The notes beneath the pieces were generated by a model. The model did no database searches. It saw only the letters and a program-made list of their open reading frames with translations, and was not told the origin of the DNA. A stretch of 64,000 nucleotides of DNA from Paramacrobiotus metropolitanus (Eukaryota > Tardigrada > Eutardigrada > Parachela > Macrobiotidae): assembly GCF_019649055.1 (NCBI RefSeq), contig NW_026570224.1, positions 3,410,001 to 3,474,000 of the forward strand, written 5' to 3'. Below, piece after piece: positions 7,025-52,284 of the stretch (its first letter is position 1; every line of letters begins with the position of its first letter). The translations under genes were made by a program, and so were the position numbers.

Positions 7025-7058
7025 TATACTCGTACAGTTTGTATACTCGTACAGTTTG
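7025..7058. repeat. Tandem 17-bp repeat (third copy at 7416-7432)
   Basis: The unit TATACTCGTACAGTTTG is present twice head-to-tail at 7025-7041 and 7042-7058. A third identical copy lies about 360 bases downstream at 7416-7432, and a partial copy is near 7390. Function unknown; this may be local duplication upstream of the SAHS gene. Confidence 0.8.
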
Positions 7059-7524
7059 TATCTAGATGTTTTTTTTTCACTGTCTTGTTCAAACCAACAT
7101 GAGCGGAAACAACTGACAATTAAGATGATTTTACGACATTCGCGAACCTAACAAACACAGAGATCGACAGAAAAAACTACGGAAACAAGCAGCCAGAATC
7201 CACAGGTGGCACACGAACGAGCTCGCTGGTTAAGGGCCAAACGCAGAGCGTTGTAAGGACAAGCCCCCAGATTGCTTCGGGCATAACAACAGGAACATCC
7301 GACCGCAAACATCCGCGCTTCCTCAGTCCGTCTCCAGAGCCTGGGAGATCCACGTTCGTTCCAAGATACCCCAACGACATGAACAACGACAGTTTGTATA
7401 CAAGAACTAACTTTGTATACTCGTACAGTTTGTACAGCAGCTACTGCATGTATGTATAGCTTTTGCAAATTATATTCAGGTGAGGATACTGATTACAAAA
7501 CATTTATTACGAAGTACGCATACA

Positions 7525-8043: not shown

Positions 8044-9504
8044 ATGACTTCTACTGCAGTTAGACAATATACGGTTCTGTTTGTTCTTGGGACAATAGGT
8101 AACTGCAGACTGTATATTTGGCTAAGATTCCTTTTGCTGCTGTTATTTTATATGCCGTCTAATGCGTTATAATACTCAGATGTACAGCAGTAATGCGCAT
8201 AGAATATACATACAATAGATAATAGGACTGTATACAATAGAACGTGTTTTAAGTTGTTAATTGTCTATTTGTTTCTTATAACTTCGTAATAAAGCTCCAT
8301 AATAAAATTATAAGCAAAGCAGTATTACGAAAACCAGGAATATAATTTATTGCTTATTCATTCCCGAGAATATTGTTCTTTGTAGTTTGTACTTACAGTA
8401 AAAATCGTATCATGACAAATATTTTTTAGCAGGAGTCGTAACGGCAGTTCTGCCGGCGGATCTGGCATCCAAAGCTGCAGTAAACAGCAGCGACACAAAT
8501 GACGCAGTTGATAAACCTGCACTGCTGATACCGTTTGGAAAGTTTGAAGCAACAGATCAAACAGAAAACTTTGCCAATTACCGGTCAAGGTATGCAGATT
8601 ATGCGATGTAACCAAAATTGAGTAATCCATACAGTACTCAGTACTAATTGCAGACTCCTCTATAATACGGCAATTACCGTAAAGCAGCGATTGCGCAGTG
8701 GTTTTGTTTTCAGAATGTCATTATAATATATGGCCGCTTCATTATTAATGATCTTTTTTTCGCTCCAGCTTTTCGAAAAAAATTCTGTTTGTAATTTGTA
8801 GTTAAATTAGCAAATAACACATCTCAAAACTCAATTCGCATTACAGCCTTAATGTGGAGTTTAAAGGATTTTCCGCAAAGCACTTGAAAGGCAAAGTGCA
8901 ACACGAATTTAGCCGCATAAACAGCACAACTTACGCTCATGCATTTTGGATTGTGGATACGCCATACAAGCAAAATCTACCGTTTGAACTTGGCCGCGAA
9001 TATCCACACAGCTACAATGGGACCGCCTTTAAGGTAAGAGTATTTTATTTCTACCGAACTGCATTAAACTTTTTTTGCGAAGTACAGTATCTTACAGATA
9101 TCTCGTAGTGGTGCATTGTATGTTCTATTCGTTTCATGTTATACAAAACTTTAAGCTGTTATATGAAATTTCGTGTTTTTTTCGTAGTACCGGTATTACC
9201 AAGAGCCGAGTCAGCTTGGTTTACATGCAGTGTTCCATGTTCCGGCGGATAACCCACTCCCTATCGAACATTTGTACACATCCAGCTCAGAAGGTTTTAT
9301 TTTGGTAAGCTGCGGTAAATTATGAAAAGCTGATCCGTTTGACCTTAAATGTGCACACGCATTATATGGTTGTCGGAAAAACACGCGATTGATAGCGACG
9401 TTAAATCAGCTAAATTAATTGTCCTCTTGTTCTTAAGAATGTTTATTTTTCAGACGTACAAAATCGGAGATATGATAGCCAAACGCTCATACAAAAGGGT
9501 TTAG
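8044..9504 (+). CDS. SAHS: Secretory abundant heat-soluble (SAHS)-like protein
   Basis: Exons 8044-8098, 8433-8589, 8847-9033, 9188-9304 and 9454-9504 join in phase to 188 residues. Residues 1-~24 are a hydrophobic signal peptide (VRQYTVLFVLGTIGVVTAV). The mature part opens with FGKFEATDQTENFANY, matching the SAHS GKWESTDRIENFDAF pattern. It carries an IPSR-like HVPADN strand, and ends in LTYKIGDMIAKRSYKRV, close to the family's TYKVGDVTAKRWYKK. SAHS proteins are secreted, fatty-acid-binding-protein-like beta barrels found in tardigrades; they stay soluble on heating and are linked to desiccation tolerance. This copy looks full length and intact, with no second SAHS gene in the window. It appears divergent: the central region shows little similarity to the SAHS pattern I recall. 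Start chosen because it alone supplies a signal peptide. Confidence 0.85.
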
Positions 9505-10064: not shown

Positions 10065-12886
10065 TCATGTTACAGCCTGAATGCCACCAAGAATTGTTAC
10101 ACGTCGATCGTGGTATTTTCGTGAAATTTCTTGCTCAATAAATTTTTGTACTTCCCGAGTGCCTGTGATGAGTTGCTGCAGTTCTGGATCGAGCTTCTTG
10201 CGCTCTTCCGCGGCTTCCAAACGGTGAATCTTGAAAGACTCAGCTCGATCTTCCATGCGCCTAGCCAAAGTTAGCTTGTGCTCCAGCTGTTTCGTCAGGC
10301 GTTCTAAAAACCTGTAAGAAAACGATACTCTTAAAACCGTCAGGGAAAACAATTTCCATATACATACTGTACAACTACAAAGTTAAAATGCAAATTTCAT
10401 TCGTTGTAAAACTGATATGCGAAAACAAGCGCAATGTTTCAAACAAAGGCGTACGTGGTAGAGTCGTGCAGTTTGCAAAGCGACTGCAATCGGTGGTCGT
10501 TCAGCAAATCCAAAATTTCCTGGACACTGCCAATATGCTGTTGCACAGTCCTCTTATCGCCAAAAAGGACCGAATCAGCCAACGTTTGCAAATTCAAAAA
10601 AGATGATGCCATATGTTCTGTAGTCTGCTCTTCCAGTCTTCGTTGCAGAAACGCTAACAGCTCGTGCAATTCGTTGGTCATCTGAATTCTCGTTTCAGGA
10701 TTATCAAGGACACTCCGCTTGGCAAAATCTGAAAAATCGACCAGTTTAGAATTTACGATTCTGAAACAAACAAGCTGCATGTATCCGTTAGTCAAGAATT
10801 GTCTCCAACCAATATTTCTTACGGGGAGCGTACGTAACAGTACTGTACTCAGAGCAACAAGTTTTAGGCAAACCCACATTGACATGCGACAGACATTAAA
10901 TTTATCATAAAATATTTATTTTCTATAGCAGCCAGGATTTCATACGACTAACAGTTCATAAGTCGCACGAAAACGTAGGTTTAATTTAAAATATTATACT
11001 ACATTTGAGATCCGAATATTTCGACGTTAACATATAGTAAGTAAATTCAGAGGCTACGTAGCAAACAAAAAACTTTTAGCCCAGCTCGAAATGTACATGT
11101 ACAAAATGTCGCTAACCCAACTCACCACACGAATCTTCCACCGTTATGCTGATATCATCGTTTCCTAAATCCCAGTCAACTTCGTTGTCACCTTCCGGTT
11201 CCTCAATATTAAAATCAATAACATCGGCCACATCGGATTTATTGAGTTCATTAAGATGATCGGCAATCGTATCGTTCAAATTAACGTCCAGCGAAAAACG
11301 GCTGGATTCTCTGTCCTCCTCGGTAACAGCGGGAAGGGCAGTGTCCATCACCGCAATATTAGCCACAGTGTCTTCCAAATGTGGCTGCTCCGTCAAAGGA
11401 TACGGTTGATTACCGTACTTCATAAGATGGTGAACAAGTGGAAACAGGTCTGAACCAGTCTGCTCTTCTTTTGTACTGCTATAAAGTAGAAAAAATATAC
11501 TCTGGATAGATTATGCAATTAAAGAGTATTTGGAAAGTCGTACTTAAACAACTCAGAAGCAAACTAAAACACTAACACTAACTAACCGCTCTAATAAATT
11601 TCACTATATATTTACAATTTCTTGTTTCGGCGAAGGAATGACTTACCCTTTGTGGATTGCGGCAATAAATTCTTCAACATTTTTACACAACGGCTGCAGA
11701 ATAACCGATCGCGAGGAAATGCTGTCGTACATTTGTGGCAACACTTTAGCGCCTAGCAGAAGTTCTTCCATCACATTCCGTCCCTGGAAAATCAATAATC
11801 TATTTGTGTTCAAGAGTGTGCGAAAACGGAAGCCCCCGTAAAAGAAAACGAATTTGGTATTAGATACCAGACCACTTCCTAACACACTACGTACTTCTAT
11901 TCCCAATACTTCACATTCTTTGCGATACTGATCATGGAATTCCGCAGCATTTCTAGCAGCATCTTCTGATTTCTTCCCATACTCGGTAACAGATTGGTCC
12001 AGTTTGTGCATTTGTTTCTTGATAAATGGAATGTCGTACGTTATGTTGCGATATATGACTTGACCCAATTCCGCTAAAAATGCAATAATAACATTCAAAA
12101 AAATGCATAAAAAATAAAGTATTAGTGTGGAAACTGCAAAAACATAAGTAACAAATTAGATTTTTCATAGCGAGGCAATTATGGTACTACAGTCTGCAAA
12201 GCCTCTCAAATCTCCGCAAATTTTTGTAACAGCACTTAGACTTTACTGTTTGCTACATTCCAGTGATTTCAATGACGCTTTATACAGAACTGTACCAAGA
12301 TATGTGTTGTCTTTCTCATAGAGCTTCATAACTTCGTTCAGGTCCTTCATCAACGGAGACTGGTATTGGCCCAACAAATTTTTGGCTCCAAGTGGCGATT
12401 CATTCAGTAGTTCAAAAATCTTTTTACAATGGACGTACAGAAGATCTACGAGTACCGAAAATGTAGTAAAATTAACACCGAACGCCAACCCTTGATATCC
12501 GCAGACAAGCATCAGACAGGTAGAATTTAATGATTACGAAGCGCCGTCGAAAGAAAACGAGACTCATACCCGAGGCTGTAGTGGGAAGTTCAGCAGTTGA
12601 CAATATACTCTGTATATTTCCATCTTCCTGCAGTTTCGGGAATAACGAAGCCAGCTTCTCCCGGACAGCCGTAAGGCTCGCATGCCAGTCCCTGGTGCAG
12701 TGTCGCCGACTGATGAGCCATTCTGTAATAGGCAAAACTTAGAACCAGGCAGCGAAATCAAACAGTCCGAAACTCGTGGAGATTAGGTGGAGTAGCGTTC
12801 AGTCTTGCGCCTAGCGTACTGTTCGTACCTAACAGCTGTCCCAAATGGATGTCTATTGGAATGTGGCGAGAGCTGTCGGAAGCCAT
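10065..12886 (-). CDS. CDK5RAP3: CDK5 regulatory subunit-associated protein 3 (UFM1 ligase adaptor)
   Basis: Eight exons: 12886-12829, 12722-12570, 12445-12296, 12073-11895, 11783-11647, 11478-11126, 10728-10455, 10311-10065. All are in phase, giving 516 residues; human has 506. The product is the adaptor of the UFL1-DDRGK1 ligase that attaches UFM1 to ribosomes at the ER and links to ER-phagy. Supporting sequence: N-terminal HIPIDIHLGQLLEWLISRRHC, then GAKNLLGQYQSPLMKDL and KLYEKDNTYL, the acidic central segment with VIDFN and VDWDL resembling the human shuffled Atg8/UFM1-interacting motifs (IDWGDF type), and the C-terminal FIEQEISRKYHDRRVTILGG. The start in exon 1 is fixed by PIDIH, conserved at the human N-terminus. 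No lesion was seen. Confidence 0.93.
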
Positions 12887-30003: not shown

Positions 30004-33000
30004 CTATGGCACGGTATCCGCTATGGAACGCTGGCTTTGTTGATACAGCATAGCAAAATGGGAAGACGGACTACGCAATAAATTGGACGGACTATCCGTT
30101 TCCACAATTTTCCCATCGCTCATCACAATGATACGATCATAGTCCATTACCTATATTAAGGCATTTAGAGTGATGCAACGATACTTTGTACAGACGCCAG
30201 TCAAAATTCACAAAGCGATATTACCGTATGCAAACGATGCGCTATTGTAATAACTGTGCTATGGGCAAACGCTTCACGAATTGTCCTCTGCATTTTCTGG
30301 TCGGTTTCATAATCTATGCTGGCTGTAGCTTCATCCAGACAGAGGACCTGTAAAAGACGAAAAAAAACTAAACTACAAACAGTTTCTAACAACAGCTGAC
30401 TAAATATCCACCAAGGCGCGATCGAATGGCCATAACTTAGAAATTTTACGTGAAGGCATATCCTGTCCAATGTACCGTTTGGTTCGCGTACCTTGGCTTT
30501 GGTCATTATGGCCCGCGCCAAACATACAAGCTGCTTCTGTCCCAGTGACAACTTTCTGCCATTTTCACCCAACATAACGTCCAAATGCCCTCCCAGTTTC
30601 CCAACGGGATCCCTCAAATCACATAAATCGATGGCTGCCCACACTTCTTCGTCGGTATGTTGGTGTAAAGGATCGATGTTCTCACGAATAGATGCATCAA
30701 ACAGGTTGGGGGTCTGCGGAATGATGGCCAAGCGCGATCTGCACAGTGCAAACTAGATTGTCCCGACGAACGAAAACGTACATTTTCTTCTCTTTATCCT
30801 AATTTTAACGCTTACGAAATTTCTACCTTTCCATACTCGTACGCAGCATCATGCATGTGATGGATGCACATTCCACTGCGCCAGATGGCGGGGACACAGC
30901 TTCATCTACAACTTACCGCAACTGCTCCAGAGGCAGTGTAGCCAGATTCACACCGTCAATCGACACAGCACCCTGCTCAATTTCCACCACACGGAAAAGC
31001 GTGGCGAGAAAGGAGGACTTTCCCGCACCTGTGCGCCCCACCACACCAATTCGTTTGCCGGCAGGAATCTGCAGACTGATGCCCTTCAGTACGAGAGGAA
31101 GATCATTTCGGTATCGCAAGCTGACAGTATTAAAATCTACGGCGCCCAGCTGTGGCCAGTCCCGTGGAGCCTAAACAAATTCAAATAACACTTGAATAAC
31201 AATTGCAAACATGTACTTTTTATTACAGCACTCGACATACTTGCAACAGGCCGTCGTATTTTTCCTCCTCAATATCATCGAGATATTGGATGACGCGCTC
31301 AACGCTAACAAGTTCCTGGAAAAAAGAATAAGTTCAGCAACGGCTTCTTAAACCTAACCGGACGGCAGCCATCCCTAACTTATTTTTCGTACCTTTTCTG
31401 TTTCGATCAAGGACATGACAAATCCGTTGAGAATTCCCACAATTGTAAGAGAATACGAAACAGTTAAACCAAGAACTCCTACAAAATAAAAGAGATAACA
31501 TTTCCAAATTTCCTGGTTAATTTATTGTACCATAAATAGCATTACCGATCCGAAAACGCAGCGCAAGATGGTTTTGGGTTTTGACAAACAAAACGCTTAC
31601 CTGCTGCCGATTTGACTAGAAGCGCAATAACCACCACACCACTGACGATAACTATTCCCAACAATTGCAAACGCATGGATAGCCACTTGTTGCACGCGAT
31701 TTCCGCGAACTGTGAGCGCAGATAATCATCCAATAGCAGTTTGTACTTTTTATAGAAAAATTCCGTGGCTCGCATCACACGAATTGTGGACAATCCATGA
31801 ACAGTTTCCGCATACAGGCCAAAAATCGGAGACTGGGCAAGCGTGCTAACTCTTTTAATTTCCCTGTAAAATATAAATGTACAAACCACCATCAAAGAAG
31901 CTGCTACAATATAATCCACCTAAAACTAGGGAAAATACTCGTATTTCAAACGAAAATAATTTCAAAAAATCGAATGCATATTATAGAAAACTATTGAACG
32001 TATCAAGGCTCGTATCAAGAATGTTTCATATGCCATATAAACTTTATTAGGCAATACCCATCAACAGGACAAATTAATTATTATTTATATCTATTTCTAT
32101 ATTCTATGCCATCATAGGAAGTTTTTACTATATTTATACTACTAACCTAGACGTACTGCGATAAAAGCGCTGAATAAAAAAATAGAGCGGAATAATGGGA
32201 ACGAGGACGATAATAAACCAAGGCAGTCCATAGCAGATCACAATCAGAATGCCCACCAGCTGGAATATGCAGGCCAACAAAATGTTAACATTAAACGGCA
32301 GCTGAGAATCCACCGATGTGACATCTTTGGCAAAACGATTCAGAATCCTTCCCGATGGAGTCGTATCAAAAAACATCATCTTGGCGCGCATGACCTTACT
32401 GAGCAAACTGTCATGCATACGGTAGGCAGCACGTAGGCCGGCATATGCAAAAACAAATGATCGAATAAGGGCAAAGAAAGAATTGCCAGCTCCAATGCTT
32501 CCGTAAACGGTTAGATAGTAATTAACATCCGATTGGGTTTCGTTGGTTGTAGTATTAACCACAATACGTTCATGCGTAACCCAGTAGGACAGCCACCAAT
32601 CCGTGGCGTTGTAGGACGCTGCAACAACAAAACCATTATTTATCATCTTCATCTTCGTTTTCAAAATTTTCCAAAAAGAACTGCTTATAATTCTGTTCCA
32701 ATACAAGTGATCTTGGAATGCATTAGATATTCATACAAAAATTACTGCTGACTTCGGAGAAGAGAGAAGACAAATTTCAAGCAAACACACATCAGTCTTA
32801 CCCTGCATCAAGAAAAGCGAAACAAACACGGCAATGCTCCAGAAATTCCCCACCGCCTGCCAGTACTGCCGGTAAACGGACAATTTTAAGCTGCCAAACT
32901 CTCGCTGCTCTTCCTGCACCAATTGGACCGGTGCTTCTCGAGGTTCGGGTTCCTGCACACTGGTTCTCCTGGAGGTTGCCTGTGAGATGTCGGACAGCAC

Positions 33001-36000
33001 TCCCGATACACCTTCCACACCACTCACACTTTTTTCGCCAGTGCTGCCCGGCCATTTAGGCCCGAAACCAGTCAGCTTGGACAGAATTTCCAGCGGTTGA
33101 CCATTCTCGACAATATGTCCATCTTGCATAACTATCAGGCGGTCCATCGCGCGCAGAAAATCCAAATGGTGAGTCACAAGAAGGCGAGTCTTATTTTTGA
33201 GAAGTCCCAAAACACACTTGTCAAAAATGTGGTTGGCCACTTGGGCGTCCCTACACACGATAAACTACGTAAGGAGATGCAAAGGCAAAAACCAAAAATA
33301 TTGGAAACTGACGCTTACTTGTTCTTTTTAAATTTAAATCAGAGTGTATAAGAAAAAAAGTATGAATCACTTAACAATCCACCTTGCGGATCAAGACTTC
33401 GAAGAAAATCAAGTAATACTTTACGGATCCATGCGGTTAAAGTCTCTTTGAGATTCAGTTACGAAAAATAATGGATTGTGAAAAATTAACGATACCGTGA
33501 AAAGGCACGCAAAATTCACGGTCACCATTACTCTGTGCGCCATACACTGCAGAAAACGGATCGTCCATCAGAATGATATCTTTATCCTGCAGAACGGCCC
33601 GCGCCAGCGCAATTCTGGCCTTCTGTCCTCCGCTCAATGTCACTCCCTGATCCCCAATCTGCGTCAAAGCTCCATGCGGCAGCTCTTCCAGATCATGTGT
33701 CAGTGCACACGCATCGATAACATTCTGTAAACCTTCCGGCTGGACGTCGGTCAGTGAGAATTTAATATTTGACAGCACCGTGCCCTGCTGCAACCAATTA
33801 TCCTGCGGCACGTAGGCAAATCCATTTACCATCGTATTCTGCGAGATCTCGATACTGCCACCCGTCCGATACAGTTCGGCCATGACAGCATGCAATAACG
33901 ACGTCTTTCCGGAACCGACTTTTCCCACGATTCCAATCCAGCTCTCCGCGTCGGATCTCCAGTGTTATACCGTCCAACTGGTTGCGGACAGCCAACAGTG
34001 GTTCTCGCGGAGTGGGTGATACGACAGAACTATCGGAAAGAATTTCGTTGCTTTCATTCCCGGTCCATGTGAAACTAGCGTCGTGGACAGTCAAAATGTT
34101 GGCCACAGGATTCACTATGAGATCGGTGTTCACTGCGTAGTACGATTTGAGGTCGATATCCGAAAGCCGAAAGAACTGCTGCAGTCGCTTAGCGGATATC
34201 CAAGCTTCCACTGTACCGGTAATAATCCAAGGCATGGCGTTGAGAGGAGCGTACACAAGGCCAAAAACGGAGAGGCAGGTGAAAACTTTGGCGGCGGTCA
34301 GCTGTTTGCCGAACGATACGTACGTCACAAATGTCAGAACCGACCTATAAACGGAACATCCATTGTACCTTCAAACAACCGGTAAATCGGATTGCTAAAA
34401 CCAGAACCGATCTACTGAGCTTGAAAACTGAATTCGAAGAAGCCAAAAAACGATTCAAAAGCCATTCGGAATTATTTGCGAGCCAATAAAAAAATAAATC
34501 TGATATTACAGTGAACCTACATTATAAGCGGCGTAGTGGCCCAAAAATACACGCAACAGGCATCCAAGTATTTGATACTTTTCACGGTGGCCATTTCCCT
34601 TTGTCTGACCGCGTCCACTCGGGCACTGAACCATTTTTCCCAGGCATAATACTTAATAACCCGAATGGCACTCAGTGCTTCACTCATCAGTTTCACACGA
34701 GCATCGCGCTCCTTGAGATTGCGCTCAACCTGTCGGGATATTTTGCTGGCAATAAGCTGATTGAGTGGGACAAGAAGAACGGTAAAAATGACCCCACCGA
34801 TGAAGGCGTAGCCAACTTGCTGGTAGAGAAGATACAGCGCCACAGCCATCTGCAGCGGGAGTGCCCATAACTGATGGAGGTACTGGATATTGTCAGAAAC
34901 CTTCTGGCAATCAGTGCCGACCAGATTAACAACATGTCCCGCCGCCATGTTGTTGTTCAGGGCCGAAGCGTGCACCTGCACCAGTTTGTAGTATACCGTG
35001 TCCATCAAGGCACCGCGAATGCACCTGAAAAAATTAACAATCAATTACAACAAAACCGCAATTAGGTCCAAAAATTTACAGCTTTACACTACGCAGTAAA
35101 TAAATTAAATTCCATCTACTAACAATGCAAGTTTTTCCATCTGAAATGCATAGTGCAATTGTACACTGTTGGAAATTAGATTGACCAGAATGAGGCCCAA
35201 TCCATACACATATCCGAGATAATCCGGCTGCGATCCTGGTTGCTCAATTAACGCCACCAGCACATTGACAAACAACGGCGAACAATACTGCAGAAAGGAA
35301 TAAGCCAGCTTCATCACCCCCAACAACAACCATTTTCCACCCCATATGCGTAGAATAATTTGCTGTAAATAAAATCTGGACGATTTCAAATTCTTCGCCA
35401 ACGCCTTCTGCAGGGCTTCGGCATGCAAATCCGCTTTTAATTTGAGAGGTAATTCAAAGAGATCATCCGGTTTCTGCAAATGGCCCTCCGCACCATATTC
35501 CATCAATGGGTCGACCCATAAAAACAAGAAAAAGCGCAATATGCCCCATGTATTCGGTGGACCAAGTCGAGGCACGAGAGATGTTCTTTCTGGCATCACA
35601 TTTAACAGCCGTGCAGTATCATTATCGGCTTCGTCAGGTGGTGTGCGTGCACGCTCCTCCGAATCGAATGGTGAAGTAACAAACAAACATGTGCTGTATA
35701 TATGAAGCACCGTTGAGAAAATGTAGAATACATGAAGACCAAAAGTCACCATGGTGACTATGGACGAAACTACATTGGGACTGTGATGTAGCACTGCGGA
35801 ACGGAACTCCACACTGGACACTAAGAAAACCTGGAAATAATAACGCGCTTTCAACAGATTTAATAACCCAATAAATTCCGTGTACTTATTTACATACAAA
35901 ATTTTTAAAACAAATACAACGTCATCTGAAAATTCCACTTAGTAATATAGGTTGTCCGTACATTGCCCATAGATGGAAATTTGGAGCGAAATAGCAAACC

Positions 36001-44323: not shown

Positions 44324-45955
44324 TTAGTCTTCATCACTATCTTTGTGAAGGGGAAATTTAGTGCCGGTTCGATGTCGGGGGTCTTCTTCTTCGCTTTCAG
44401 TGTCCGTAGGGGATTTCCTACGTTTCTTTCGCGAGTGTGGTTCATCATTAGAGTCGCTTGAGCTATTGGCGTCGGATTCGTTACTTGGCATCTCCTGCAA
44501 CACCGAATAAAAATTAAATCAAACACCGCGCGCAAAAATCCTCCGGTGTGGCTTTGTCAAGCTTTGTCAAGCACAGTGCAACTTCCGTAAATTGTAGCCA
44601 TTAGCAATCGAAAACGACTTCGACACTTTTTTTAAAAAAACCAAATGAACTAACTCAAAGCGCTTAATCGTAAAATTATAACACGATGAATACCGAAACT
44701 TAAAAACGGCAAATCCGTTCACGGAGTAACGTACTAACACGAAATCCACAAAAGAATCATTTCCAGAGATTACGTACTCACTATTTTCAAGTGCATTAAT
44801 TTATGTTTATGGAAATCGAAATCTACTACTCGCATGTAGTTCAACGAATCTTACCAGGTCACTTTCGTTAGCATTAGCGTCGTCATCATCGCTCTCCGAT
44901 GTGCTAGTATCATCCAGCGGCTCATTATACACCAGTATCGCTTTCTTCTCAGCCAACTGCGCTTCCGTTCGTTGACTAATCCGCTGTTTGGCCAAATCCA
45001 CCGACGCATTAACCACTCCGGCCAATTTAACAAACCGGTCTGTGTATTTTGTTCGGCGATCGGCATGCGCATACAGATGGCTAAGCAAAACAGGCAAATC
45101 GGGAACAGTCGTGAGGTACGACGACCGAATGGTCAGCACCGCCGACAACCAGTGCAACGGGGCTTTATTGGGTTTGGCGCGTTCTTCCGCGCAGACCTTG
45201 CCCAAATGCTGGATAAGGGAGACTGTATACTGAACGGGGAGGTTTTCAATAGTTTTCCGGATGATGGTTTCATCACTGCGATCTAAGACGCTGTTCAGGA
45301 GGGATAGATCGCCGCTTTTCAGGCCTTGTTCTGCAAATCCCACAATTGATCAGTTGTTAAAAACAGGCATTTTTAAAATTACTGTTTCAGAATTCCCATA
45401 GTTTCGCTTAAAAAAAAAGAGGTTCCCGACAAACTTTGGTCGGAAGGTTGTTCTGCAGTTACCACAAATGCAATTAATACAAGCGCAAAATTTTATAAGA
45501 AAATGCAGGAAGACTGCAGAATTACCAATAAAACTGCAGAGAAACAGCTAAGTAAGTAATTAGTTGTCAGTAGTAAATCTTGAGAAAACAACACCGAATT
45601 AAAAGAAAGGCATATTTTTACGCACTCTGCTTATACACAATTAAAATTTTACATAGAATTTTTACCCTATTCTAAGCAGGATTTGTTCCTTACCTAGAAG
45701 AACAGCTAAGCTGTCGGCCCGTGGGGGACCACTCTCCGGTTCTCCGCTGGAGTTCTGAGCTCGCTGCAAGATTTCCCCGAGCGATGGCTCGGAAGGGACG
45801 CGGGAAGACAATTCTGAGGCAGTAGCACTCGTATCATTGTGATTGGACGAAGCAGCCTCACCATGGGATCGATTCTGAGCAGCGCGAGGAGTTCCGTATG
45901 ATACAGTTGGCTCAGCTGTTTTGCGAGAATTTGGTGCAGCCGACTGCTTTGGCAT
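44324..45955 (-). CDS. Utp12-domain protein related to WDR43/Utp5, no WD40 propeller
   Basis: Exons 45955-45694, 45330-44855, 44494-44324; 302 residues, all phases consistent. Residues ~85-200 match the C-terminal Utp12 domain of WDR43 (GLKSGDLSLLNSVLDRSDE, IIRKTIENLPVQYTVSL, LHWLSAVLTIRSSYLTTVPD). It is followed by acidic Ser/Asp tracts and a basic nuclear-localisation-like RKKRRKSPT. WDR43 is a t-UTP subunit of the small-subunit processome that supports pre-rRNA transcription and 18S rRNA processing in the nucleolus. The family normally carries about 330 residues of WD40 repeats before this domain. Here the frame opens with an ATG and a disordered ~85-residue leader (MPKQSAAPNSRKTAEPTVS). 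The 745 bases upstream, as far as ARL1, contain no WD40 exon. Either a genuine split or shortened protein, or an incomplete model. Confidence 0.8.
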
Positions 45956-46700: not shown

Positions 46701-47243
46701 TCACTGCGCCACCTTCAAAGCATTGACTAACCACTCCATAACCGGCTCGAGGCCTTCGTTGTTCTTAGCAGATGTCTTAAAAATCTGAAATGTGCGATTC
46801 TTGAGCGCATCCAATCCGAGCGCCTTATGGACATCGGCCACGGACATTGCCTGTGGGAGATCCTGCTTGTTGGCCAGCACCACAATCACCGCCGACTTGA
46901 GCTCCTCCTCTTCCAGCATATGCACCAGTTCCTGCTTGGAAATGCCCATACGCGCATGATCCGCACTATCCACCACGTAGATAATGGCGTCCGTGTTGGC
47001 GTAGTAACAGCGCCAGTAAGGCCTGATGGACGCCTGTCCCCCCAGATCCCAGCACTGGAATTTTAAATTTTTATACGTCACTGTTTCCACGTTGAAACCA
47101 ATGGTGGGAATGGTGGTAACGGCTTCGCCCACTTGCAGCTGGTAGAGAACGGTGGTTTTGCCTGCACCGTCCAGGCCTAAGATGAGGATGCGAATCTCCC
47201 GCTGGCCGAACAGACTCTTAAAGTAGCTCATCAAACCGCCCAT
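46701..47243 (-). CDS. ARL1: ADP-ribosylation factor-like protein 1, single exon
   Basis: One exon, 180 residues plus stop, starting at the second in-frame ATG (47243) so that Gly2 (MGGLMSYF) is available for N-myristoylation; an upstream in-frame ATG at 47267 would bury it. The protein is a Golgi small GTPase that recruits GRIP-domain golgins and other effectors. All GTPase motifs are intact: GLDGAGKTT (P-loop), [11 protein letters not shown] (switch I), [13 protein letters not shown] (switch II), NKQD and TSA. ARL1-specific features include [12 protein letters not shown] and [11 protein letters not shown]. The lack of introns among intron-rich neighbours could mean intron loss or retroposition, but no lesion marks it as a dead copy. 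Confidence 0.93.
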
Positions 47244-48243
47244 CGTAACGTTCTCGGAGTTATACACGCCTGTGTATGTGGAATTTAAGCGGAGAAAGAC
47301 GTTATAAAAAGGATGTAGTACTTTTAGTGATCGTATTCGCTAGCGATCCAAATTCTCGGGACAGACTGCACAGCTGTTCAGCTTGCGTCCCCGTCCGCTT
47401 ATCTATAACGTCGCTCCCTTCCTCGTAGCAGGTACTTTGATGCAAGGAACAATAATTAATCGCTGATCATGAGCAAATCCACATATTACATAGGGAAAAA
47501 AACACTCGCAATCCAGATTTCCACGTAGGGTTGGAAAAGCGCACTATCAAGTATTAATCTATTTCAGGAACACTCAGAAGCTCCGAATTGATGTTGGTGG
47601 CAAAATTAATTAATGTGAACGCTTCCCAGACATTATATTATGGCTAATATCGTAGCTCAAAGGAAGGTATAGAACATCTGATCGATGTTTTTATAACTTC
47701 GAAGTTCCAATTTCGCTACTACTGAAAAAACTGAAAAACTGGAAAAAATTGAAATAGTACTGTACAGTGTACTGTTAAACTGCGATGACGTAGACCATAG
47801 CGTATAGCGCGCGTAGGCTAATTTCTTCGGGGCACCATCGATGCGAGCAACAACAGTGCAACCTGTGCAACCTTTATGGCAACCACCATCAGACGTTAGT
47901 AAGGGCAAAACACTGCCTAAATCCAAAAAATGGGCCCAACGAATGTATTACTTAATTAGCATTTGATTGATTTGAATTTTGAAATTTCTTTCTTAAATTT
48001 CTTTCGTAATTTTCTGCTATTATTATTTATTTTGAAATATGATCTTACAACCAGTGTTTTGTTTACCTTCAGAGTCTCTTTTGTTCTTTTTAAAGTTTAA
48101 ACTGTAGATTTCGAGTTCGTTGCGGACCGTGACTTTACTTGTTAAAGCGACTGAGGGTGTTTTGTTTCTTTTCATTTTGTTTGTTTGTCAGCGGGACGTT
48201 TCTCACACGGTGCTCTATCCTGCGAATCATTCCACGTCGCACC
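47244..48243. other. Divergent spacer between ARL1 and MDP1
   Basis: 1 kb between divergent starts, with the promoters of both genes expected. The frame at 47657-47926 (-) includes a Cys/Gly stretch (GGCHKGCTGCTVV) but no domain; it may be 5' UTR or chance. Confidence 0.4.
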
Positions 48244-49666: not shown

Positions 49667-50549
49667 ATGTCCTCCAATAACACCATCAGTGGACTGGCTT
49701 GTCGAATCGAAAATTTAGAAGGTGCGCAGCTCTAAACGGATATTTTTGTTTATGTTTAATTTATTTTCAGCTAGTTGAATATCTGGTAAAATTATTCAGT
49801 TTTCATTACAGAATGTGATGGAGACCGTTGCAGTTAATGTTGCTTAACTTATACGTTACCTGTTTCGACGCGTGACTTTTTAAAAGTGTTTTTGTCAACA
49901 GTGTTTATTTTACTTACCTAATCCGATTTTTTTAACCAGTATCGTATACAGATTTATTTTCCATTTCGTCAATCCGGTAAAGGATCAAACATGGTTACAG
50001 TCACTTACATATCAGCGATATCACTCACATGAACTACTGAAATTTTATTTAATTATAGCCAAGATCGACCAGTTGACCACCTTGTGTTGTAACAGCCAGT
50101 CCACTGGTTCTAATGGCCCTTGTAAAATTACGGAAACTGCGACGAAATGCAGCAAGAAGAGCAATCCTTGCGAACCGGCAAAATTATCCGCGTTTGATGA
50201 ATTGATACTGGACGGTTTGGATCGTTACGCAGTAATCGGGGAATTACTTTTTCAATTCGAACGGCGTGTCTTTACCTGCGTCGTACCAAAATGTCAGAGA
50301 TTTTACGGCTATGCTGTACGCAACATCGATCAACTGATAGCGCGAGAGGATAGCGGCTTGGATAGAGCAGAGTTCCGCTGCAATCTCAGCAAACTGAATA
50401 ATAAGTTGCGACCTTTCGGATATCTCCCTTACTTCCACAGCGAACTGTCTTGCGCCATTATTAATGAATATGGTGTTCTGGCAAGATCGGCTAGTGAAAT
50501 TCGCGCCATGTCGACACGTACGTATTTTAGGCAGTGCATTCCGTTATGA
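49667..50549 (+). CDS. Speriolin C-terminal-domain protein (SPATC1L-like)
   Basis: Exon 1, 49667-49721 (MSSNNTISGLACRIENLE), joins in phase to 50059-50549, giving 181 residues. The junction completes a short coiled coil (RIENLEAKIDQLTTL). Residues ~70-165 match the C-terminal domain of speriolin/SPATC1L: IGELLFQFERRVFTCVV, RFYGYAVRNIDQLI, LRPFGYLPYFHSELSCAIIN, EYGVL. Mammalian speriolin is a centrosomal protein of germ cells, and SPATC1L lies at the sperm head-tail junction; the tardigrade role is unknown. A donor at 50518 (GTACGT) could instead splice to 51059 and end as a different short tail (SALLEQKH), so the last ~11 residues are uncertain. Confidence 0.75.
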
Positions 50550-51152: not shown

Positions 51153-52284
51153 TCAGTCACTTTCAGAATCCTCCATTTGGCGGGCATTCCGGTAGGCCGG
51201 TGTCGGTACCGGTCGAGCGGTTTGTCGTTGCACAATGGCCGATTGCGCACGGAACAGGTGTTGCCGATCAACCGGCGCTGGCGCATTCGTTTCCGCTGTG
51301 GTTTCATTCCCGGTCAGCGCCGGTTGCGAAATACTGTTGCGCATCCCTGATGGTGCCACCACCATCGGGGCAATTCTGTTCTAACGACGTCAGTATTTTC
51401 ATTACTATTCATCGCGTCGCAGGCTGTCAGGAATTCTTTCAAATCCTCCTCCGTGTTCCATTTCTGTAAGCAACGTGCGGCTGCCGTGTACGTTTCCAGT
51501 GCACGACAGTGGAAAATCATCTCGGACACGACAAAATTATGCAGAATAGCTTTTAAATCGTGCAGTTTATTTTCTTCAAAATCCTTCCCATGCAAGCGCA
51601 GCAGCTGCAGTTGGTGCATGGTTTCCGTGTGATTTTGCCGGTAGTTGTCCAGTGTGGCATGATACAATGACGACGTTTCGCCACTCTTGGCACGAATTTT
51701 CTCCAAAGTGTCCAGCGAATGCTTGCTCTTTTCGCTGACGGCTTGGCATTTTTTCACTTCCTGTTTGAGCGCTTTGGTCGAGTCTTCATACTTGTGAAAG
51801 GGCGGAATAATTTTGCTCATAATGCGCGTGGCGGAGATATGCCGGAAGTCTTGAATCAACGCCATCCAGTGGGTGAACTCGAGGAGTTGTTGACGGGCGG
51901 ATGGGTTGTAGGATTCGCTTTCGGCATACGAGGTCAGAATATCCACGAGATCGTCGCCTTTGTCGCGTGCGGCGGCCATCTTCCTAGCGTATGCTGACAG
52001 CTAAAACACAAGACAACTTAAATTAGTCGTTCCCACATTGATCTATGTCATAGTAAATTTAACATTCAAACAAGTTAACGAAAGTGTGTATGCCCATTGA
52101 GGCTCTGAATAAGGAGTAAAATTATTATAATTCACACGTAGAGTACCGTTTGAAAAATGAGCGAAAAATGCTTGTTGACATTGGTGGCCCGACCGAGCAT
52201 AATCCTGCATTGATAATCAACCGGAGTGACAGCACCATTTTGGCCGGACACATTGCTGCTCGCTGCTCCAAAAATAATCGCCAT
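51153..52284 (-). CDS. CIBAR1: CIBAR1/FAM92 BAR-domain protein
   Basis: Exon 1, 52284-52147, contains ATNVNKHFSLIFQT, aligning with human SNVEKHFGELCQIF. Exon 2 starts at 52000 (LSAYARKMAAARDKGDDLVD). The protein is a membrane-curving BAR-like coiled-coil dimer that works with CBY1 at the ciliary base and also acts on mitochondrial inner membrane shape. The helical domain runs through TRIMSKIIPPFHKYEDSTK, LHDLKAILHNFVVSEMIFHC and ALETYTAAARCL, all family hallmarks. As written, the frame stops at 51314 after a poor tail (RWWWHHQ). One more C in the CCCC run at 51367-51370 restores a 70-codon tail ending MEDSESD at 51153, which looks like the true acidic C-terminus. With it the product is about 328 residues (human 289). 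Confidence 0.85.

Follow-up and report, generated by a model that had tools for sequence, protein, structure and literature searches.

A diverged SAHS-family gene of a eutardigrade and its shared intron positions with fatty-acid-binding protein genes

Few protein families restricted to tardigrades have been tied to the survival of drying; the secretory abundant heat-soluble (SAHS) proteins are one of them. An origin of this family from fatty-acid-binding proteins (FABPs) has been argued earlier on the basis of fold and sequence trees. SAHS proteins are reported from eutardigrades and not from heterotardigrades (PMC10799326), and the shielding of membranes and extracellular structures on drying has been shown for RvSAHS1, RvSAHS4, RvSAHS6 and HeSAHS4 (PMC11127935). 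The SAHS1 and SAHS2 genes were reported to have four exons and to show no conservation of splice sites between RvSAHS1 and RvSAHS2 (PMC3429414). A four-exon form also predominates among the FABP genes of animals (PMC3796463).

The window analysed here is a 64,000-nucleotide stretch of contig C4 in the Paramacrobiotus metropolitanus assembly (170 Mb, 533 contigs). We are highly confident that positions 8044-9504 on its forward strand form a protein-coding gene of this eutardigrade, specifying a secreted, probably N-glycosylated, FABP-like beta-barrel of the SAHS family. The initial annotation had proposed five in-phase exons encoding a signal-peptide protein of 188 residues. When the gene was rebuilt from the sequence, the five exons were recovered with GT-AG borders at every intron, a single open frame and a TAG stop, and the translation proved to be one residue longer, at 189. 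The exon boundaries are predictions that combine a spliced aligner with consensus splice sites (Table 1). The last intron falls between the Leu and the Thr of FIL|TYKIGDMIAKRSYKRV. Export of the protein is predicted from a hydrophobic run followed by V-T-A, as judged by hydropathy and by eye, and from the phase-1 intron in this region that is shared with other SAHS genes. A further sequon, NSS at residue 37, lies in exon 2.

Table 1. Exons and introns of the SAHS gene, and domains located elsewhere in the window
Feature	Position	Strand	Remarks
Exon 1	8044-8098	+	Contains the start codon and the beginning of the signal peptide; phase 1 at its end
Intron 1	8099-8429	+	GT-AG; within signal peptide; common to all SAHS genes modelled
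Exon 2	8430-8589	+	Remainder of signal peptide, 29-residue linker, first strand, start of helical lid
Intron 2	8590-8846	+	Phase 2; a few bases (about 2 codons) upstream of the usual SAHS/FABP phase-1 site
Exon 3	8847-9033	+	Mid-barrel; sequons NST (residue 97) and NGT (residue 129)
Intron 3	9034-9187	+	Phase 0; alignment column shared with FABP intron 2 and with all SAHS genes modelled
Exon 4	9188-9304	+	Later barrel strands
Intron 4	9305-9453	+	Phase 0; alignment column shared with FABP intron 3; missing in the seven cluster SAHS genes
Exon 5	9454-9504	+	Final 16 residues, TYKIGDMIAKRSYKRV, and stop
Utp12 domain	44807-45343	-	
Arf-family GTPase domain	46701-47267	-	
Speriolin C-terminus domain	50073-50549	+	
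FAM92 domain	51314-51979	-	

Several other features of the window were recorded. Two head-to-tail copies of the 17-mer TACTCGTACAGTTTGTA lie at 7027-7060 and a third some 360 bases on, at 7418-7434; they precede the SAHS gene by about 1 kb and 0.6 kb, respectively (0.02 expected by chance). The next gene downstream lies on the opposite strand and carries a CDK5RAP3 domain (11643-12098). Several adjacent open frames on the reverse strand at 30201-35938 resemble, by eye, the exons of one ABC transporter; a Pfam scan of one of these frames gave no match.

The assignment to the SAHS family is supported by sequence, tree and gene structure. In a search against all solved structures, the best match of the window protein was RvSAHS1 (E=3.6e-14 over residues 54-188), followed at a distance by RvSAHS4 (E=0.011) and by the top FABP (E=0.83). 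Both peptides that had been quoted as SAHS hallmarks of the two barrel ends are present in the translation. A Pfam search with the protein returned no match, lipocalin included, as was likewise reported for SAHS proteins by the founders of the family (PMC3429414). In spliced alignment to RvSAHS1, the gene region scores 163.6, whereas 153 further 1.6-kb segments from the window, taken on both strands, have a mean of 39.7 (sd 7.2) and a maximum of 69.7; the match is therefore not due to chance. No second SAHS copy was seen among those 153 segments. In a tree built from the barrels of 13 SAHS proteins, the window protein included, and eight FABPs, the window protein falls on the SAHS side with a support of 100/100. 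It sits on a long branch of 1.34 changes per column, and its joining point among the SAHS proteins lacks resolution. We conclude that this is a real but diverged SAHS member, and one that is ordinary as a gene.

A search of the genome with RvSAHS1 uncovered seven SAHS genes clustered in tandem on contig C3 (446-468 kb) and three single SAHS-like genes at C78:512928-513992, C13:843482-844458 and C41:331305-329498. Among the latter, the C78 and C13 proteins also prefer RvSAHS1 over any FABP in the solved-structure search. The presence of an entire SAHS cluster upholds the tardigrade origin that had been read from the window alone. Given the cluster and the three single genes, the earlier statement that the copy stands alone is correct for the window and incorrect for the genome, where at least 10 relatives reside on other contigs. 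A recent survey of P. metropolitanus gives 13 SAHS-like genes, five of which are singletons (PMC13006486); these probably include the gene described here, which would then be catalogued already. Two of the cluster genes (C3:459685-460690 and C3:466689-467524) are near-identical and reflect a recent tandem duplication.

Profiles PF00061 and PF14651 run over the genome returned none of the SAHS genes; their matches were limited to a small number of lipocalin- or FABP-like loci. One of these, C2:3177-3181 kb, was initially taken as a lipocalin match and turned out to be a four-exon FABP gene. Neither a SAHS nor an FABP model was obtained at the C20 and C148 loci, and the loci on C16 (157 kb and 594 kb) and C14 (194 kb), which gave no convincing complete model, were omitted from the tree.

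The arrangement of introns provides a further view of the family. The phase-1 intron in the signal peptide is present in 11 of the 11 SAHS genes modelled. Three of the genome's FABP genes, those on C2, C67 and C18, have the four-exon form, and their introns fall at columns 20 (phase 1), 84 (phase 0) and 124 (phase 0) of the alignment. The two phase-0 introns are shared exactly with the window gene and with the single genes on C78, C13 and C41, and in each of these four SAHS genes 48 coding bases follow the last intron. The cluster genes carry the column-84 intron in all seven cases and the column-124 intron in none, a distribution that is explained by one change on the tree. The aligner is blind to intron positions. 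Under random placement, the chance that at least two of three introns coincide exactly is about 1e-4. Intron 2 of the window gene deviates from the phase-1 site that most SAHS and FABP genes of this genome use; this reflects sliding or replacement of the intron, or misalignment through the variable lid region.

For C13, C41 and the majority of the cluster genes, a fixed cut-off close to the end of the alignment was applied to the barrel models. The codon that follows the end of these models is not always a stop, and their true C-termini extend by some residues; a last exon of 51 bp with its stop is established in no genes other than the window gene, C78 and an FABP gene on C107. The fixed ends leave the intron positions unmoved.

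Some FABP genes of this genome have departed from the four-exon form. The C107 gene (C107:414452-415149) has lost the middle intron and kept the last, the opposite of the SAHS cluster. An intronless FABP gene is located at C14:1066159-1066575, and genes of this kind are reported in other invertebrates (PMC3796463). At C39:885036-885275, the final two exons of the FABP gene on C2 recur with the same translation, and no matching upstream exons were found; the locus is either an incomplete copy of that gene or a duplicate created in assembly.

Because introns are shared with FABP genes and a signal-peptide intron has been added, these structures support descent of the SAHS family from an FABP gene that acquired a secretion exon, and the family seems to have arisen in this way. 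As the cluster genes are the only SAHS genes modelled that lack the last intron and a single change suffices on the tree, one later loss in the cluster lineage is likewise supported. On the simplest history, the first SAHS gene would have formed when an FABP gene gained a secretion exon, and early members would have kept the FABP barrel introns. Loss of the last barrel intron would then have occurred in one descendant, which expanded into the tandem cluster, with the scattered set, including the window gene, retaining this intron of the FABP ancestor. We put forward more tentatively, at slightly less than an even chance, that the scattered genes are surviving early SAHS genes that record both the FABP origin and the intron loss preceding cluster expansion, and that they may still be lipid carriers.

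Shared intron positions constitute independent evidence on the FABP origin, and the difference between scattered and clustered genes offers a simple marker for ordering SAHS history, which also helps researchers choose copies with which to examine protection as opposed to lipid carriage. We found no open-licence paper that compares SAHS with FABP introns; the accessible part of PMC13006486 draws gene structures, and such a comparison is not among them. The intron pattern, for which no earlier report was found among these papers, is what we consider worth retaining.

The initial annotation had described this copy as divergent in the middle, and indeed identity to RvSAHS1 is 48% over the first 21 aligned residues and 67% over the last 15, versus 24% and 28% in two middle stretches. 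Residue equivalences were taken from RvSAHS1 positions (PMC11127935, PMC5916119), and the mapping depends on the alignment. On this mapping, the pocket residues His72, Tyr117, Tyr141, Arg161 and Tyr163 are kept, as are the core residues Phe98, Leu100 and Leu124. The Arg161/Tyr163 pair of RvSAHS1 holds a carboxylate (PMC11127935, PMC5916119). Changes affect Trp41 (to Phe), Trp75 (to Ser), Lys150 (to Leu) and Asp139 (to His), along with Val143 (to Ser) and Leu148 (to Phe) in the core, and the Trp immediately before the barrel is missing. The Asn109 equivalent, a glycosylation site at the mouth of the cavity, is kept, two extra sequons occur in the barrel and in the linker, and the protein is less hydrophilic than the cluster copies.

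The sequence is consistent with a ten-strand, FABP-like barrel resembling that of RvSAHS1 (5xn9) with a partly polar cavity. Such a secreted barrel could hold a carboxylate ligand through its Arg/Tyr pair, and, like other SAHS proteins, would help to protect membranes and extracellular structures as water is lost. By analogy with characterized members, a role in protection on drying is the likeliest job of the protein.

A serious rival, given that this copy keeps the fatty-acid pair and loses other SAHS traits, is that it belongs to the family by descent and not by job, and is a constitutive, secreted lipid carrier, neither abundant nor heat-soluble, that moves fatty acids in body fluid. Loss of the Lys150 and Asp139 equivalents and of core Trp residues, the location of the gene singly and outside the cluster, and its ancestral layout all favour this reading. 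We nevertheless consider it less likely than not: the protein retains equivalents of Tyr117 and Tyr141 along with the SAHS-type glycosylation site, and cavity residues vary greatly among the SAHS proteins of R. varieornatus as well. Far less probable is a decaying or silent copy on its way to becoming a pseudogene, to which the long branch and the several lost family residues might point, but 189 codons run without a stop or frameshift, all eight splice sites are canonical, and the C-terminal motif and ligand-binding Arg/Tyr pair are intact. That an ordinary FABP resembles SAHS through chance or convergence is scarcely credible and was rejected, for despite the common fold family and identical intron places, SAHS1 leads every FABP by more than 10 orders of magnitude, the 100/100 tree split and the 163.6 alignment score agree, and the window gene, unlike a cytosolic FABP, carries the signal-peptide exon and its phase-1 intron.

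The window protein can be set beside its closest described counterparts. RvSAHS1 of Ramazzottius varieornatus (PDB 5xn9, 5xna) is alignable over the entire barrel at 34% identity, and both proteins bear a signal peptide. Equivalents of Arg161/Tyr163, His72, Tyr117 and Asn109 are common to the two, whereas Leu, His and Phe stand in the window protein for Lys150, Asp139 and Trp41, respectively. Its gene has five exons, compared with the four reported for SAHS1 and SAHS2 (PMC3429414). The C3 cluster genes resemble it in the signal-peptide exon with its phase-1 intron, the phase-0 middle intron and the conserved barrel ends, but they lack the last barrel intron, retain the pre-barrel Trp and are only 19-37% identical to it over the barrel. 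The genes on C78, C13 and C41 are alike in the last barrel intron, the 48 coding bases beyond it and the signal-peptide exon, although C13 and C41 form a separate pair and the ligand Arg of C78 is replaced by Val. Finally, the C2, C67 and C18 FABP genes of this genome match the two phase-0 barrel introns of the window gene, but the tree separates them from the SAHS genes with full support.
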